From the NCBI GenBank assembly GCA_024641085.1, contig JAHEDT010000026.1, positions 1 to 42,218 on the forward strand: a stretch of 42,218 nucleotides of DNA. The letters run 5' to 3'. Shown here in pieces: positions 1,352-39,418 of the stretch. The translations under genes and the position numbers were made by a program. The DNA comes from Geobacteraceae bacterium (GTDB taxonomy: Bacteria; Desulfobacterota; Desulfuromonadia; Desulfuromonadales; BM103). The notes beneath the pieces were generated by a model. The model was given only the letters and a program-made list of their open reading frames with translations. It was not told where the DNA came from and searched no databases. Position 1 is the first letter of the stretch. Each line of letters opens with the position of its first letter.

Positions 1352-2106
1352 TGCGGCTTTCGTCGATTGATGCGAGTGGCGGCGAAGGCGGCGCCGAAAC
1401 CATTGTCGATATTGACCACCGTGATCCCTCCGGCACAGGAGTTGAGCATGCCAAGCAGGGCGGCGATGCCGTTGAAGGATGCGCCATAGCCGATCGAGGT
1501 AGGAACGGCGATCACCGGTACGTCGACCAGTCCGCCAACCACCGAAGGCAGTGCCCCCTCCATGCCGGCGACGACGATTATGACCGTGGCGTCACGTAAA
1601 GTTTCGGTGTGGGCCAGCAGACGGTGGATGCCTGCAACGCCGACGTCGACCAGCTCCTCGACCTGGTTGTTGAACATGCGGGCGGTGACGACTGCTTCTC
1701 TGGCAACCGGCAGGTCCGAGGTGCCGGCGCAGATCACCAGGATCTTGCCGCGGCCCAGGTCTTCGATCGGCTTATGCCGTAAGCTGAAGGTCCTTGAAAG
1801 AGGGTCGTAATCTCCTCCGGGGTGAGCTTTTGCCAGGATTTCGGCTTTTTCCATGGCAATTCGGGTGACCAGCACGTTGTCGCCGTGAGCGGCCATGCGC
1901 TGCACGATGGTCGCGATCTGATCGGCAGTCTTCGCGTCGCCGAGGACCACCTCCGGAACTCCCTGGCGCAGGGCGCGATGGTGGTCAATCTTGGCAATGC
2001 CGGCGTCCTCGTAAGGCAGTGTGCGCAAACGTTCGAGACCTTCGGCGATGCTCAGGTCACCGCTCTGCACCGCAGTCAGTAAGTGCTTTAAATCGTTGGC
2101 GTCCAT
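1348..2106 (-). CDS. larB: LarB, pyridinium-3,5-biscarboxylate mononucleotide synthase
   Basis: This 252-aa protein matches LarB, which carboxylates and hydrolyses nicotinic acid adenine dinucleotide in the first step of nickel-pincer cofactor synthesis. The C-terminal half (about residues 120-250) is the PurE-like carboxylase domain, with [30 protein letters not shown] and NIDNGFGAA. The N-terminal part carries the expected [16 protein letters not shown] segment. The ATG at 2106 is preceded by GGAG at a good spacing. The gene overlaps larC by 4 bp. Together they make a two-gene lar unit that continues into pgpA. Confidence 0.93.
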
Positions 2107-2177
2107 CTTTCAAACTCCCGGCCCCTCCGGAGATGACATGTTAGCATTACCGGGCGGATTTTCAAACTTTTAGTCGG

Positions 2178-2196
2178 TCGGGCAGTTGTTGCCCGA
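2178..2196 (-). other. Small hairpin between the RuvC-like gene and larB
   Basis: TCGGGCA / TGCCCGA with a 5-nt loop forms a perfect 7-bp stem in the 100-bp gap upstream of larB. No T-run follows on the minus strand, so it is at most a weak terminator or a leader structure of the lar unit. Confidence 0.35.
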
Positions 2197-2206
2197 TACT
2201 CATCAT

Positions 2207-2728
2207 TCAACCGGCCGGCCGGGTCGTCGAATCGTCAAGAGGCACGGTTCCCATTGGGCCCTGAATCAGCCACCATCCCACCAGGATCGCCTCGGCGGCG
2301 TCGTGGCGCAGTGAGGTCGGTTTGCCTGCGCCGGTTCGTTTGATGATCTCTCTGGCCAATGTGTCAGCGACCTGCTTGGCCTGCTTGCCGCTACGCTGCT
2401 GCCGCGGAAGCAGCATAAGTTCACGCCACTGTTGCGCCTGAACCTGCGTGACGGGCAGTCCGCGCTTCTTTGCCTCCTTGATCCAGATCTCCGCGAAAGG
2501 GCCGCCACCCTCTATTACCAGACGGGTCAGATCGTCGATCCCTTGGAGAATCTGCCATACGGCCTTTTTCAGACGGGCGCGGCTGCCGAAATTGTGGGAG
2601 CGATACCAGATAAGCCTGCCGGAAAGTTCATAGAGGGCCAGGCCGGTTCTGAGACCGCAATCAACGGCCAGTAGCTTGGGGACTGCAGGCACAGGGCTCA
2701 AAGCTGGTGAGGCTGCAGGTGAGTCCAT
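2207..2728 (-). CDS. Small RuvC/RNase H-fold protein of unknown function
   Basis: This is a 173-aa protein. After a Pro/Ala-rich N-terminal tail it carries LLAVDCGLRTGLALYE (first acidic residue of an RNase H fold, about residue 23), LVIEGGG (second acidic residue, about residue 70) and RHDAAEAILVGWW (HD-A motif, about residue 145). This D...E...HDAA layout is that of RuvC-type Holliday-junction resolvases and the wider RuvC-like nuclease superfamily, so metal-dependent nucleic-acid cleavage or binding is possible. It is not canonical RuvC or YqgF in sequence, and no nuclease activity can be claimed. It lies 77 bp downstream of ftsK in the same direction, which may hint at chromosome processing, but the lar genes on its other side are unrelated. 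Confidence 0.6.
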   Translation of the reverse strand: MDSPAASPALSPVPAVPKLLAVDCGLRTGLALYELSGRLIWYRSHNFGSRARLKKAVWQILQGIDDLTRLVIEGGGPFAEIWIKEAKKRGLPVTQVQAQQWRELMLLPRQQRSGKQAKQVADTLAREIIKRTGAGKPTSLRHDAAEAILVGWWLIQGPMGTVPLDDSTTRPAG

Positions 2729-2805
2729 GCAGTATTGGGCGCTCCAGGGGAAAAGATGACCTCAGCGACAGAAGAGAATGGCCCGGCCCATGGGGTGGCT
2801 GGCCC

Positions 2806-5088
2806 TTATTCGACGCCGATCTTGTTGATGTAGACCTCGCGGGGGCGGCTGGTGCCGTCAGAGGGGCCGACGATCCCTTCGGCCTCCATCTTCTCGATCA
2901 TGCGGGCGGCCCGGTTGTAGCCAAGACGCAGACGGCGCTGCAGCATGGAGATCGAGGCCTGCTTGGTGTCAGCGATGATCGCCAGGGCCTCGTCCCATTT
3001 TTCATCATACTCCTCGTCGCCGTCACTGCCACTTTCGGCGGCCGGGGGGGCTTCCAGGATCGATTTGTCGTAGTCGGGCTTGCCCTGTTTCTTGAGGAAG
3101 TCGACGACCCGCTGCACTTCGATCTCCGAGACGAAGGCCCCATGGACACGCTGTACGGCGCCGGTCCCAGGCGGCAGGAAGAGCATGTCGCCGTTGCCGA
3201 GTAAGGCTTCGGCGCCCATCTGATCGAGAATGGTGCGCGAGTCGGTGCGGGAGAAGACCTTGAAAGAGATGCGGGTCGGGAAATTGGCCTTGATCAGGCC
3301 GGTAATGACATCGACGCTCGGCCGCTGCGTGGCCAGGATCAGGTGGATTCCAGCGGCCCGGGCCATCTGGGCGAGACGGGCAATCGCTTCTTCGATCTCC
3401 CGTCCGGCAACCATCATCAGGTCGGCAAGTTCATCGACAATCACGACAATGTACGGGAGGTGGGCATGCTCGAGGATTTCTCCGTCGACCAGTTCGATTT
3501 CCGGCAGGTCGTCTTCCATGAAATCGGTCGCCGCATCGCTGCTCTGTTCCTGCTGACGCTTCGAGGAGCGGTCCTTCTCCTCCTTGGCCAGTTTGCGGTT
3601 GTAGCCGTCGATATTGCGCACGCCCTTGTCGGACATCAGCTTGTAGCGCCGCTCCATCTCGCGTACCGCCCAGTTGAGAGCTAGGGCGGCCTTTTTGGGA
3701 TTGGTCACCACCGGCAGGAGCAGGTGCGGAATCCCTTCGTACATGGAGAGTTCCAGCATCTTCGGGTCGACCATGATCAGCCGAACGTCGCGCGGATCGG
3801 CACGATAAAGCAGCGACAGAATCATGGCGTTGATGGAAACGGATTTCCCGGTACCGGTCGAGCCGGCCACCAGCAGATGGGGCATCTTGGAGAGATCGGC
3901 AATCACCGTGTGCCCAAAAATGTCCTTGCCCAGGGCCAGCGGCAGCCGTCCCCCGGTTTTCTGAAATTCGTCGGACGCGAAAATCTCCTTGAGATAGACC
4001 ATTTCCCGGTTGCGGTTGGGAATCTCGATGCCGACCACGCCGCGACCCGGGATCGGGGCCACGATGCGGATCGAGAGAGCCTTGAGCGCCATGCTCAGGT
4101 CATCGGCCAACCCGGCAATCTTGTTGACCTTGACGCCGGGTGCCGGAGCGAATTCATACATGGTGACCACCGGCCCCGGTTTAACCTCGGAAACATCCCC
4201 TTCGACGTTGAAGTCGAGCAGTTTCTTCTCCAGCAGCCGCGCATTCATCATCAGCGCGTCCTTGTCGACGGGAGTCGCAACGTCCCCATCGTGGTCGAGC
4301 AGGTTCAGGGAAGGCTGGTGATAGGTTCCCGACGGCTCCAGGAACTCGAATGCTTCCTGGTTGTCCTGAGTTTTCTTCTTGCTGCTTTTGGCCAGCTTTT
4401 CCTTGCCTGCCGGGAATACAGACGGTTCCGGGGCACGGATGACCGGGGCTTTTTCTTTTTTGGGGCTCTTGACTTCCTGCAGGGCGCGACGGGCCAGGCG
4501 GGCCTCGCGATTTCTCTCCATGCTGGTGCCCAGCCTGGCGAGCAGCCCTTCCAGAAAGAGCACCATGGAAAAGCGCGCGACCAGCATGGCCGAGACCGAC
4601 AGGAACACAAGCAGGAAGATGGCCGCCCCGGTGAGGTTGAACCAGCTCTTCAAGGTGCTGGCCAGGAAGTAGCCGATGAAGCCGCCGGCCTGGTTTAGGA
4701 CCTGCCCGAACAGGGCGACCTTGCCAAATTTAAGGGAGATCAGTCCGGCGATTGAAACCAGCATCACCACAAAAGCGATAATCTTATAGATCCGGGGGTG
4801 CAGGTCACGGAATTTCAGGAGCCGCCAGGCAAAAAGCAGGCAGGCAAAGGGGATCATCATGGCCGGCAGGCCGATGACCTGGTAAAAAAGATCGGCGACA
4901 TAGGCTCCAACCTTGCCGCAGAAGTTGAATGTCGAAGTCGGGTTGAGGTTGTTGTTGAACGATGGATCACCGTTATTGAATGAAACCAGGCTCAATAACA
5001 GAAAGAGGCCGGCGGCCATCCACAGGAGGCCGGCAATCTCTTTTTTGATGTGTTCGCGCAGGAAGGTCTTGCGTGGTTTTTCGCTCAT
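2806..5088 (-). CDS. ftsK: FtsK/SpoIIIE-family DNA translocase
   Basis: This 760-aa protein has four or five N-terminal membrane helices (about residues 20-190), a short charged linker, and the FtsK motor. Walker A is GSTGTGKS (about residue 405) and Walker B is YIVVIVDELADLM (about residue 547). The C-terminal gamma winged-helix domain (about 695-760, with KQASISMLQRRLRLGYNRAA) reads the KOPS signals that orient translocation to the dif site. FtsK pumps DNA at the division septum and activates XerCD. The linker is short compared with E. coli FtsK, as in SpoIIIE and most non-enteric bacteria. A charged insertion of roughly 35 residues (RKLAKEEKDRSSKRQQEQSS then an acidic run) lies between the ATPase motifs. 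The start codon has only a weak ribosome binding site. Confidence 0.95.
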   Translation of the reverse strand: MSEKPRKTFLREHIKKEIAGLLWMAAGLFLLLSLVSFNNGDPSFNNNLNPTSTFNFCGKVGAYVADLFYQVIGLPAMMIPFACLLFAWRLLKFRDLHPRIYKIIAFVVMLVSIAGLISLKFGKVALFGQVLNQAGGFIGYFLASTLKSWFNLTGAAIFLLVFLSVSAMLVARFSMVLFLEGLLARLGTSMERNREARLARRALQEVKSPKKEKAPVIRAPEPSVFPAGKEKLAKSSKKKTQDNQEAFEFLEPSGTYHQPSLNLLDHDGDVATPVDKDALMMNARLLEKKLLDFNVEGDVSEVKPGPVVTMYEFAPAPGVKVNKIAGLADDLSMALKALSIRIVAPIPGRGVVGIEIPNRNREMVYLKEIFASDEFQKTGGRLPLALGKDIFGHTVIADLSKMPHLLVAGSTGTGKSVSINAMILSLLYRADPRDVRLIMVDPKMLELSMYEGIPHLLLPVVTNPKKAALALNWAVREMERRYKLMSDKGVRNIDGYNRKLAKEEKDRSSKRQQEQSSDAATDFMEDDLPEIELVDGEILEHAHLPYIVVIVDELADLMMVAGREIEEAIARLAQMARAAGIHLILATQRPSVDVITGLIKANFPTRISFKVFSRTDSRTILDQMGAEALLGNGDMLFLPPGTGAVQRVHGAFVSEIEVQRVVDFLKKQGKPDYDKSILEAPPAAESGSDGDEEYDEKWDEALAIIADTKQASISMLQRRLRLGYNRAARMIEKMEAEGIVGPSDGTSRPREVYINKIGVE

Positions 5089-25791: not shown

Positions 25792-25815
25792 TCCGGAAAT
25801 ATTGAGAGTTGAATC

Positions 25816-25847
25816 AAGGGCAACAGATGACCGATCTGTTGCCCTTT
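25816..25847 (+). terminator. Hairpin terminator after the nonahaem cytochrome gene
   Basis: AAGGGCAACAGAT (25816-25828) pairs perfectly over 13 bp with ATCTGTTGCCCTT (25834-25846) around a GACCG loop. The T-run is short, but the position 25 bp past the stop codon fits termination. Confidence 0.7.
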
Positions 25848-25935
25848 GACATTTCTAAATGGAGGTTTGTTGCGACCTTTGTTTTAATTGTGCTTTAGCC
25901 TTTTCTCACTTCGCAATTCTCAGTGCAAAGACTTT

Positions 25936-26551
25936 AAAACCGGCGGGTCGCGTCCCGCCGGACGCCATACTTTTGCCCGGCAGCAAAAGTATGCAAAAGT
26001 GCCGTCACCTCGCGGTGGGCATGTCTTGTGCGGTCATTCTACGGATCAATCCACAATACAGCCAACGACCACGTCATTTCCTTCAGCAGCACTACGGGGC
26101 CCTATTTTACCGGGCCACCGGGGTCTCCGAACGTAATGTCGCCGATGAGGTCAACCTTTCAGCCAATATCAAGGTACGCAGACCGAGGAACCAAAAACTG
26201 TCTGAATCGACCTTTTAATCAGGTTTTGACTGGTTTCCCTTTCGCCTCGAACCTCGCACCTCTTACCTCAGGTACTAAATTTGTGAAATGTGTAGACCTG
26301 ACCCCACTCACTCGTCGCATGTAGCGTGTCCCGGGTTCTATGGTGCAACTCGCGGACCATCCGGGGGCCAAACAGAAGGGCCCCCGCCAGGGTGGTCGAA
26401 GCGTAGACGGGAAGTTCTTCTGCCGTACCGGTGCTCGGTGCCAATCGATTACGCGTAAGACATGCCAAGCGCAGCGTCAGGCCCTTTTCTGCGTACTCTT
26501 TTGGGCCAGTAAAAGAGTATGGCGTCCGGCGGGACGCGACCCGCCGGTTTT
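25936..26551. mobile_element. 616-bp element bounded by a perfect 35-bp inverted repeat (candidate)
   Basis: The 35 bases at 25936-25970 are the exact reverse complement of 26517-26551. Each arm carries two nested hairpins: an outer CCGGCGGG/CCCGCCGG stem (25940-25961 and 26526-26547) and an inner one, CATACTTTTGC/GCAAAAGTATG (25966-25993) on the left and CGTACTCTTTT/AAAAGAGTATG (26492-26521) on the right. A further GGGGGCC/GGCCCCC hairpin lies at 26363-26385. No transposase is encoded. The terminal symmetry suggests a MITE-like or relic element; a structured non-coding RNA is an alternative. Confidence 0.5.
26280..26305 (+). repeat. Single copy of the GTGAAATGTGTAGACCTGACCCC repeat arm
   Basis: The 26 bases here (TTTGTGAAATG through GACCTGACCCC) are identical to 39553-39578, the right arm of the palindrome near alr. 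There is no opposing arm next to it, so it is a solo half-element. Confidence 0.9.
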
Positions 26552-26654
26552 GGTTCTGCTTAGATTGTGCTCTTTGGTGGCCGACTCTGAATCTGGGTGG
26601 GCAAACTAACCTGGGAAGAGAAGATCAAAAGAAAATATCATCACCAAATAATAG

Positions 26655-26683
26655 AGGGCAACAGATGACCAATCTGCTGCCCT
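26655..26683 (-). terminator. Hairpin terminator downstream of gap
   Basis: GGGCAACAGAT (26656-26666) pairs with ATCTGCTGCCC (26672-26682) with one mismatch around a GACCA loop, 23 bp beyond the gap stop codon. It is a near copy of the hairpin after the cytochrome gene, in the same orientation. The T-run is poor. Confidence 0.5.
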
Positions 26684-39165: not shown

Positions 39166-39199
39166 GCCCGCACGGCGGGTATGCTCGTTGCTGACCAGA

Positions 39200-39292
<93 letters not shown>

Positions 39293-39418
39293 TGGTTCAG
39301 GTATACAATCCAGTATGTGCGGTGTCCGCTGAGACGGTCCGGTTCTGCGTCCGGATAACTTGCGAACCTCTCGAGCGGGCAAAAAAACGCCATCAATCAG
39401 ACACATACAAGAGTCTTC
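39293..39418 (-). CDS. Possible 42-codon leader reading frame upstream of and into the TPP aptamer
   Basis: From an ATG at 39407 on the minus strand a frame starting MCLIDGVFLPAREVRKLS runs 42 codons to a TAA that falls inside the aptamer (GGGGAGTAA, about 39279-39287). GGAAG lies eight bases upstream. The coordinates given cover the part before the aptamer plus the ribosome binding site. No known family; translation is not established. Confidence 0.2.

Follow-up and report, generated by a model that had tools for sequence, protein, structure and literature searches.

A MITE-like dispersed repeat of the Desulfuromonadales with predicted pseudoknot ends that carry a triple-helix signature

Introduction

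Dispersed repeats in bacterial genomes are usually classed as MITEs or as REPs recognized as DNA. REPINs are about 100 bp long and carry a GTAG foot, and the hairpin ends of REP and of IS200/IS605 are recognized by HUH enzymes. RNA triple helices are found in the telomerase-RNA pseudoknot and in MALAT1; a pyrimidine triple helix follows the rule of U.A-U (T.A-T) and C.G-C triads.

Chunjie is a known MITE of Geobacter uraniireducens, with 38 copies of 178 to 235 bp (PMC10969869), and Geobacter and Pelobacter genomes hold dispersed multicopy families that are mostly intergenic and in some cases palindromic, including one G. metallireducens set whose ends form inverted repeats (PMC2700814, PMC2996986, PMC3543383). 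Other reports describe an ENE triplex that protects the RNA of the plant retrotransposon Evade and aids its mobility (PMC12501189), as well as the Rfam family TwoAYGGAY (RF01731), a probable RNA without an assigned role (PMC2864571) for which CsrA binding is predicted (PMC4333381).

Here, we analyze a 616-bp element in a 42,218-nucleotide contig of a Geobacteraceae bacterium (JAHEDT010000026.1, positions 1 to 42,218; the window). Like Chunjie and other bacterial MITEs, it is short and non-coding, has terminal inverted repeats, and occurs in tens of mostly intergenic copies in the same bacterial group. In contrast, Chunjie has direct repeats and is shorter, whereas the ends of the window element covary as folded strands and lack a target-site duplication; the two are set apart by description. 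Among the features expected of a MITE, the element is non-coding, multicopy, bounded by terminal inverted repeats, and represented by sites with and without it, whereas target-site duplication is missing. It shares with REP and REPIN sequences an inverted pair of hairpin ends and a dispersed, intergenic distribution, but its ends are about 90 bp long around an element of 400 to 650 bp, and its foot letters vary and covary (TTAC, ATAC, CTAC, GTAC, TCAC, TTCA) with no conserved GTAG-type tetranucleotide. As in telomerase RNA, MALAT1, and ENEs, a U-rich strand is predicted in the major groove of an A-U-rich stem, with C.G-C triads; unlike these, the structure is bacterial, lies in an H-type pseudoknot at both ends, stands beside an intrinsic terminator in Desulfuromonadales, and has no poly(A). 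The Geobacter and Pelobacter multicopy families, which resemble the window element in being dispersed and mostly intergenic, may include the same family. No account of this family was found in the open-access full-text literature.

Results

The element lies at positions 25936 to 26551 of the window; its + strand is the one on which the interior hairpin of related copies prefers G.U over A.C. As an earlier note on this DNA had claimed, it is bounded by a perfect 35-bp inverted repeat: positions 25936 to 25970 (AAAACCGGCGGGTCGCGTCCCGCCGGACGCCATAC) and 26517 to 26551 are exact reverse complements, a pair with a chance expectation of about 2 × 10−16 in 616 bp of even base composition. Beyond the perfect part, the arms extend to 54 nt at 85% identity, and a further inner inverted pair joins 26012 to 26032 with 26452 to 26472. 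The GC stem and both AT stems given in that note were also present, as were its two hairpins per end, although these stand side by side rather than nested. Read inwards from the border, each end begins with an A tract, a GC hairpin (P1), and ACGCC. An AT hairpin (P2) follows, then a linker rich in A and a segment that is complementary to the loop of P2; a small hairpin (P3) and one strand of a long-range inner stem complete the end. At the left end, the A tract (25936 to 25939) and P1 (25940 to 25961, loop TCGCGT) form an outward, terminator-like unit on the − strand (25936 to 25961). Sequence and covariation place an 11-bp P2 at 25966 to 25993 (CATACTTTTGC/GCAAAAGTATG). The 5-bp pseudoknot helix (25978 to 26004) would pair loop positions 25978 to 25982 with 26000 to 26004, spanning the linker CAAAAG (25994 to 25999). 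P3 (CACC-TCGC-GGTG, 26006 to 26017) has the same kind of hairpin as its counterparts across aligned ends, and the inner closing stem pairs GGGCATGTCTTGTGCG (26017 to 26032) with CGCGTAAGACATGCC (26452 to 26466). At the right end, on the + strand, pseudoknot stem S1 (26480 to 26507) would pair GGCCC (26480 to 26484) with GGGCC (26503 to 26507); linker L1 (TTTTCTG, 26485 to 26491) offers six possible triads with stem S2 at 26485 to 26490 (five T.A-T, one C.G-C). S2, equivalent to P2, pairs CGTACTCTTTT with AAAAGAGTATG (26492 to 26521), with one G.U pair on the + strand. The outward, terminator-like unit here (26526 to 26551, +) is P1 at 26526 to 26547 (loop ACGCGA) with a T tract at 26548 to 26551.

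The interior holds a strong + strand hairpin at approximately 26355 to 26402 (GGGGGCC/GGGCCCCC, flanked by GACCATCC/GGGTGGTC and followed by GAAGCGTAG). By eye, the last string (about 26394 to 26402) recurs in elements of the window genus, in other Desulfuromonadales genera (L057), and in Paraburkholderia (L219, 21026 to 21034). Folded as RNA, the whole element reached −267 kcal/mol (z = −9.3), a value that none of 20 shuffles matched. No listed open reading frame in or reaching into it exceeds 119 amino acids, and 21 of the 24 indels that, inside the element, separate the window copy from nine other full-length copies are not multiples of 3, indicating that no reading frame is kept. The neighboring genes, a c7-type cytochrome gene and a GAPDH gene (Pfam), are convergent. 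A terminator scan reported the right P1 with its T tract and did not report the left one. A near-identical terminator-like hairpin (GGGCAACAGATGACC) stands on both sides of the element, at 25812 to 25845 and 26650 to 26683; the left one, a native terminator that already precedes the element, is also conserved at the empty site of G010, a genome of another genus, and its presence counts against the RNA reading favored below. The flanks (25817 to 25935 and 26552 to 26683) are partly common to several other copies, and some copies look duplicated along with their surroundings. Several own-genome copies (contigs C133, C16, C78, and C127) are embedded in low-complexity CGCCACGCG-like repeats, and a similar stretch lies inside the element. 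Two riboswitches were also observed: a TPP riboswitch (Rfam RF00059, 78 bits) at 39188 to 39297 (−) of the window, and a SAM riboswitch (RF00162) at L002, 24 to 154 (contig C95 of the own genome), about 1.3 kb from another element copy.

The element is dispersed. In its own genome, at least 87 places matched (40 of 79 first-look candidates were scored), and coverage of the element is at least 90% for 11 of these, one being the window copy, to which the remaining ten are 79 to 94% identical. At least 10 own-genome matches touch a contig end, where the repeat probably broke the assembly. A 19-base P1 motif occurred at 37 own-genome sites with at most one mismatch and gave 53 matches with up to two mismatches, compared to 0 and 1 for a backwards control. 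Of 22 family genomes, 20 had matches, though two of these had no more than a single weak one; beyond the genus, the matches listed sit in the element ends. Ends are kept while the interior differs between genera, and interior blocks are conserved within clades. A left-end pattern matched 78 stretches in named contigs, titled Desulfuromonadales, Desulfuromonadaceae, Geobacteraceae, or Deltaproteobacteria, with one Desulfobacteraceae metagenome-assembled genome as the lone exception. Among viral contigs, nothing matched this pattern, and one matched a generic hairpin pattern, without the pseudoknot. Pairing of ends up to 3 kb apart gave 69 elements, with at least 3 duplicates among them, of 229 to 672 bp, 64 of them 393 to 626 bp. 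Tandem elements occur, with five in 2.5 kb in L192. We considered integron-like arrays with attC sites, and rejected them: the tandem runs of L191 and L192 are whole elements separated by spacers of approximately 36 to 99 bp, with no gene cassettes. L127 (5334 to 5430) holds a short remnant in which a left end is joined to a right end, as though recombination between the stems had removed the interior.

A covariance model of the ends that left out P3 and the pseudoknot matched 24 of 395 phylum genomes when at most 10 candidates were scored per genome: the own genome, 8 others in its order, none labelled as another order of the same class, and 15 further ones, all weak but one. The exception is a strong end match (G286:C353:388-478; 3.6 × 10−16) in a genome of another class; that assembly has 650 contigs and 6% contamination, and the match is perhaps on a stray contig. 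Weak matches in other classes (L177, L181, and L182) were set aside as unlike the motif by eye.

Sites without the element were found in relatives. In G010, the same convergent cytochrome/GAPDH pair has its own terminator and no detected element end, with 321 bp between stop codons compared to 914 bp in the window. Paraburkholderia phymatum pBPHY01 lacks the related element at two tested sites occupied in P. caribensis (161 versus 901 bp and 28 versus 1183 bp between aligned flanks; the 1183-bp stretch holds a second partial copy in P. caribensis), and a third pBPHY01 locus aligned well on one side only. Alignments of empty sites between genera are not sharp. G004, a genome of the same genus, also carries the C95 copy, in an unbroken 84% alignment that runs to where the G004 contig starts, indicating that copies persist. 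The suggestion of the earlier note that this is a non-autonomous dispersed element thus agrees with the many copies, from the 11 near-complete ones at home to those in the rest of the family, and with the element-less sites.

We next asked whether the fold of the ends is conserved. Across 32 diverse ends, 90.8% of the 704 cells of P1, P2, and the pseudoknot were paired (75.7% in shuffles), with 98 double changes (36 in shuffles) and a covariation score of 0.334 (0.091 in shuffles). None of 500 shuffles reached the observed value on any of these measures, although the ends are kin, so that shuffles and permutations overstate independence. Structures slid by 1 to 3 columns gave covariation of at most 0.129. 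For the pseudoknot helix taken by itself, pairing was 74%, and each of its five pairs showed changes in both partners. An alignment-free parse succeeded for 149 of 158 rows, and the loop could pair with the downstream segment over at least 4 bp in 63 of 89 unique ends, compared to 38% with swapped partners and 18% after shuffling. These data argue for a predicted H-type pseudoknot, between the P2 loop and a segment past the A-rich linker, that has been kept with strong covariation. The view that the fold itself was maintained is upheld by these compensatory changes in the stems; they and the further copies are the two observations on whose absence the earlier note would have given up its reading.

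The linker is a mirror image of the P2 purine arm, shifted by four bases. Among 102 unique arm/linker combinations (from 296 rows of alignments A2 to A4, after removal of duplicates and of rows with short arms or short linkers; A and G counted only), we found 40 G-G and 452 A-A correspondences and 12 + 12 exceptions (phi = 0.743 at offset 4; −0.17 to −0.02 at the seven other offsets tried). No permutation of 2,000 reached 40 G-G (mean 9.2, maximum 20), a comparison among kin sequences that yields no probability. Read on the outward strand, the linker is made of pyrimidines and lies parallel to the purine arm, which places T at A-T pairs and C at G-C pairs. Such a mirror register would not be the product of a dimeric DNA-binding protein or of Watson-Crick pairing. 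In one Pasteurella element, at sites chosen by the mirror rule, C stands at differing places in the two ends, each matching its own arm. The left end of the window copy has a run of four T in its outward linker, and left-type linkers lack G; the triplex evidence therefore comes from right-type ends. A purine-motif triplex on the inward strand, which would have the same register, was also considered; the usual geometry of an H-type pseudoknot favors the pyrimidine motif on the outward strand, which suits the ends better. Together, the alignments suggest a parallel third strand whose bases match the pairs they face (T.A-T, C.G-C), and ends that are probably three-stranded and kept foldable by evolution. 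The pseudoknot, the triple-helix signature, and the occurrence outside the order go beyond the earlier note.

To distinguish RNA from single-stranded DNA, G.U and A.C pairs were counted. The interior hairpin of 12 relatives had 12 G.U and 0 A.C on the + strand. For P2 read outwards, the ratio was 26:7 in ends whose linkers contain G and 12:6 in those whose linkers do not (an earlier, unsplit count with fewer duplicates removed gave 40:13), and P1 read outwards showed no clear bias (18 versus 15). G.U pairs are rare altogether in the ends, where pairing is near-pure Watson-Crick, and if the element is read as a single continuous + strand RNA, left-type P2 leans the wrong way (6 versus 12). In 75 elements, borders were T-rich on both sides, and a GC hairpin followed by a T tract has the layout of a putative intrinsic terminator. 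Termination as the whole function was rejected as not general: the T tract after P1 is absent from the Paraburkholderia, Aeromonas, and Pseudoalteromonas ends examined, and a Pasteurella end pair stands between two same-strand genes. The predicted pseudoknot with its triplex signature, together with the outward terminator-like borders, favors the structured RNA that the earlier note had offered as one of two possibilities. Gene context, taken crudely around 72 elements, was codirectional for 39, convergent for 21, and divergent for 12; this is a hint only, since arrays and a few false pairs (L093 and L183) are included among the 72, which remained of 82 end pairs after 10 with short flanks, repeats, or missing open reading frames were dropped.

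The other possibility in the earlier note, an element moved by a hairpin-recognizing enzyme, found less support. No transposase-bearing or autonomous copy was found among the 69 paired elements or among 23 megaplasmid pairs described below. No target-site duplication was detected in 75 elements (k of 2 to 9, many offsets), save in three tandem-array members. At k of 6 to 9, these three, which have copied spacers, share bases about 20 positions outside the border, compared to at most 2 to 3 elements when flanks were re-paired. Y1 (HUH) transposase genes were not found in four genomes with 7 to 44 end matches (59 to 87% complete), and three were found in one genome without end matches. A Y1-transposase gene in the own genome (L051, 1380 to 2412; contig C116) is bounded by a block like that inside own-genome copies (window approximately 26271 to 26306, GGTACTAAATTTGTGAAATGTGTAGACCTGACCCC); the element seems to have taken up a RAYT-type border. 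The exact core of this block occurred in own-genome loci only, among the loci searched, and in these incomplete genomes the presence of Y1 genes shows no visible link to that of the family, which speaks against a RAYT as the mover.

Related ends were found outside the phylum. A query from a weak Desulfobacterota match (L173) retrieved 21 plasmid records, 15 of them Paraburkholderia or Burkholderia, and a second query gave 3 plasmid-search matches. We scanned 49 kb of Paraburkholderia caribensis NZ_CP012748 for sites that combine a mirror linker, a hairpin, and a 4-bp pseudoknot; there were six, arranged as three outward pairs, and three shuffled versions gave no site. With the hairpin threshold lowered from 8 to 7, the scanner recovered the right end of the window element and detected outward pairs in Pasteurella multocida and two Pseudoalteromonas records, as well as lone sites in Aeromonas, Pseudomonas, another Paraburkholderia, and Ilyobacter (Fusobacteriota). 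This wider scan gave no match in ten shuffles of the window minus the element, and none in L215 and three Burkholderia loci; Burkholderia ends in L220, L221, and L227 have a mirror linker without a 4-bp pseudoknot. Hairpin spacing within pairs was about 350 bp in Pasteurella, 410 to 560 bp in Pseudoalteromonas, and 480 to 490 bp in Paraburkholderia. Of the 50 sites on the whole P. caribensis replicon, a megaplasmid, all but 4 are arranged in 23 outward pairs, one of which straddles the origin of the circular sequence. Of the pairs, 21 span 541 to 557 bp and two span 1.92 kb. A species-specific P. caribensis pattern was absent from the four other records searched, and megablast gave no further copy on P. 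phymatum pBPHY01. Both 1.92-kb pairs contain one and the same 1373-bp sequence, which carries a Transposase_mut gene (L230, approximately 1960 to 3334, and L231). Its positions at different points of the two copies mark it as a passenger rather than an autonomous partner; this insertion sequence may target these structures.

Rfam searches of the window element gave no match at gathering level and otherwise only chance-level matches, and TwoAYGGAY had no match in the window or in the Desulfobacterota loci run against Rfam. In Pseudoalteromonas, TwoAYGGAY exceeded its gathering threshold within the elements, immediately interior to the triplex end (L218, 1066 to 1194 and 1770 to 1933); the first match stops short of the knot, which begins at about 1204. 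In Paraburkholderia, the candidate small RNA Bp1_684 overlaps the outer flank, with one match just above threshold.

Discussion

We favor, with a probability of roughly 0.55, the reading that this is a non-coding, MITE-like dispersed repeat whose ends are conserved as outward single-strand structures, working mainly as RNA and probably as RNA 3′ ends. On the outward strand, each end would fold as 5′-S1-L1(pyrimidine)-S2-S1′-S2′-3′, an H-type pseudoknot in which L1 may occupy the major groove of S2 as a U.A-U/C.G-C triple helix, much as in telomerase-RNA pseudoknots. With the element acting mainly as RNA, a transcript leaving at either border would end in the knot and then, in Desulfuromonadales, in an intrinsic terminator. 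Such a compact, knotted 3′ end would resist exonucleases; we propose that element RNA would therefore persist and that copies would be tolerable at gene ends.

A possible but clearly less probable alternative is that the ends act as single-stranded DNA, with a trans-acting enzyme recognizing the hairpin-pseudoknot, for example during replication, and moving the element as HUH enzymes do. Consistent with this are the inverted, outward ends, the differences in the enclosed interior between genera, the scarcity of G.U among almost purely Watson-Crick pairs, the element-less sites in relatives, and the lack of target duplication. However, no such enzyme was found, and Y1 genes were not found in four matched genomes of 59 to 87% completeness and were found in one unmatched genome. 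Moreover, the interior hairpin and P2 prefer G.U on one strand (a G.T mismatch is also tolerated in DNA), and T tracts at both borders suit RNA better.

Improbable, in our estimate, is a conventional MITE whose duplex terminal repeats are recognized in trans by a DDE transposase, the hairpins being incidental to palindromic ends. The intergenic sites, the long terminal inverted repeats, the size and number of the copies, and the precedent of Chunjie fit this picture; compensatory changes in three helices and a linker are unexpected for duplex recognition, target-site duplications are lacking, and none of the 69 pairs exceeds 672 bp, the two long megaplasmid pairs carrying an insertion sequence. 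Just as unlikely is a structured RNA family that benefits the host and has been duplicated, such as a CsrA/RsmA-binding RNA like TwoAYGGAY. The TwoAYGGAY matches inside Pseudoalteromonas elements, the CsrA binding predicted for that family, and the conservation of interior blocks within clades would agree with it, whereas the absence of TwoAYGGAY matches from the window and the Desulfobacterota loci, an interior less conserved than the ends between genera, and tens of copies and tandem arrays speak against it.

With a covarying pseudoknot and its triple-helix signature as the best-conserved feature at both ends, the family would show selection on a three-stranded fold and would be a bacterial parallel to the plant ENEs that shield transposon RNA. 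It offers many natural variants for testing triple-helix rules, and it would tie the orphan Rfam family TwoAYGGAY to one class of element. More speculatively, and with odds well against it, these repeats may form a cross-phylum superfamily (Desulfobacterota, Pseudomonadota, and Fusobacteriota) defined by an outward pair of triple-helix pseudoknots rather than by sequence or gene, with triplex-shielded RNA 3′ ends used in trans for copying. Such a superfamily would be a bacterial counterpart of RNA-stabilized selfish elements, such as ENE-bearing transposons.
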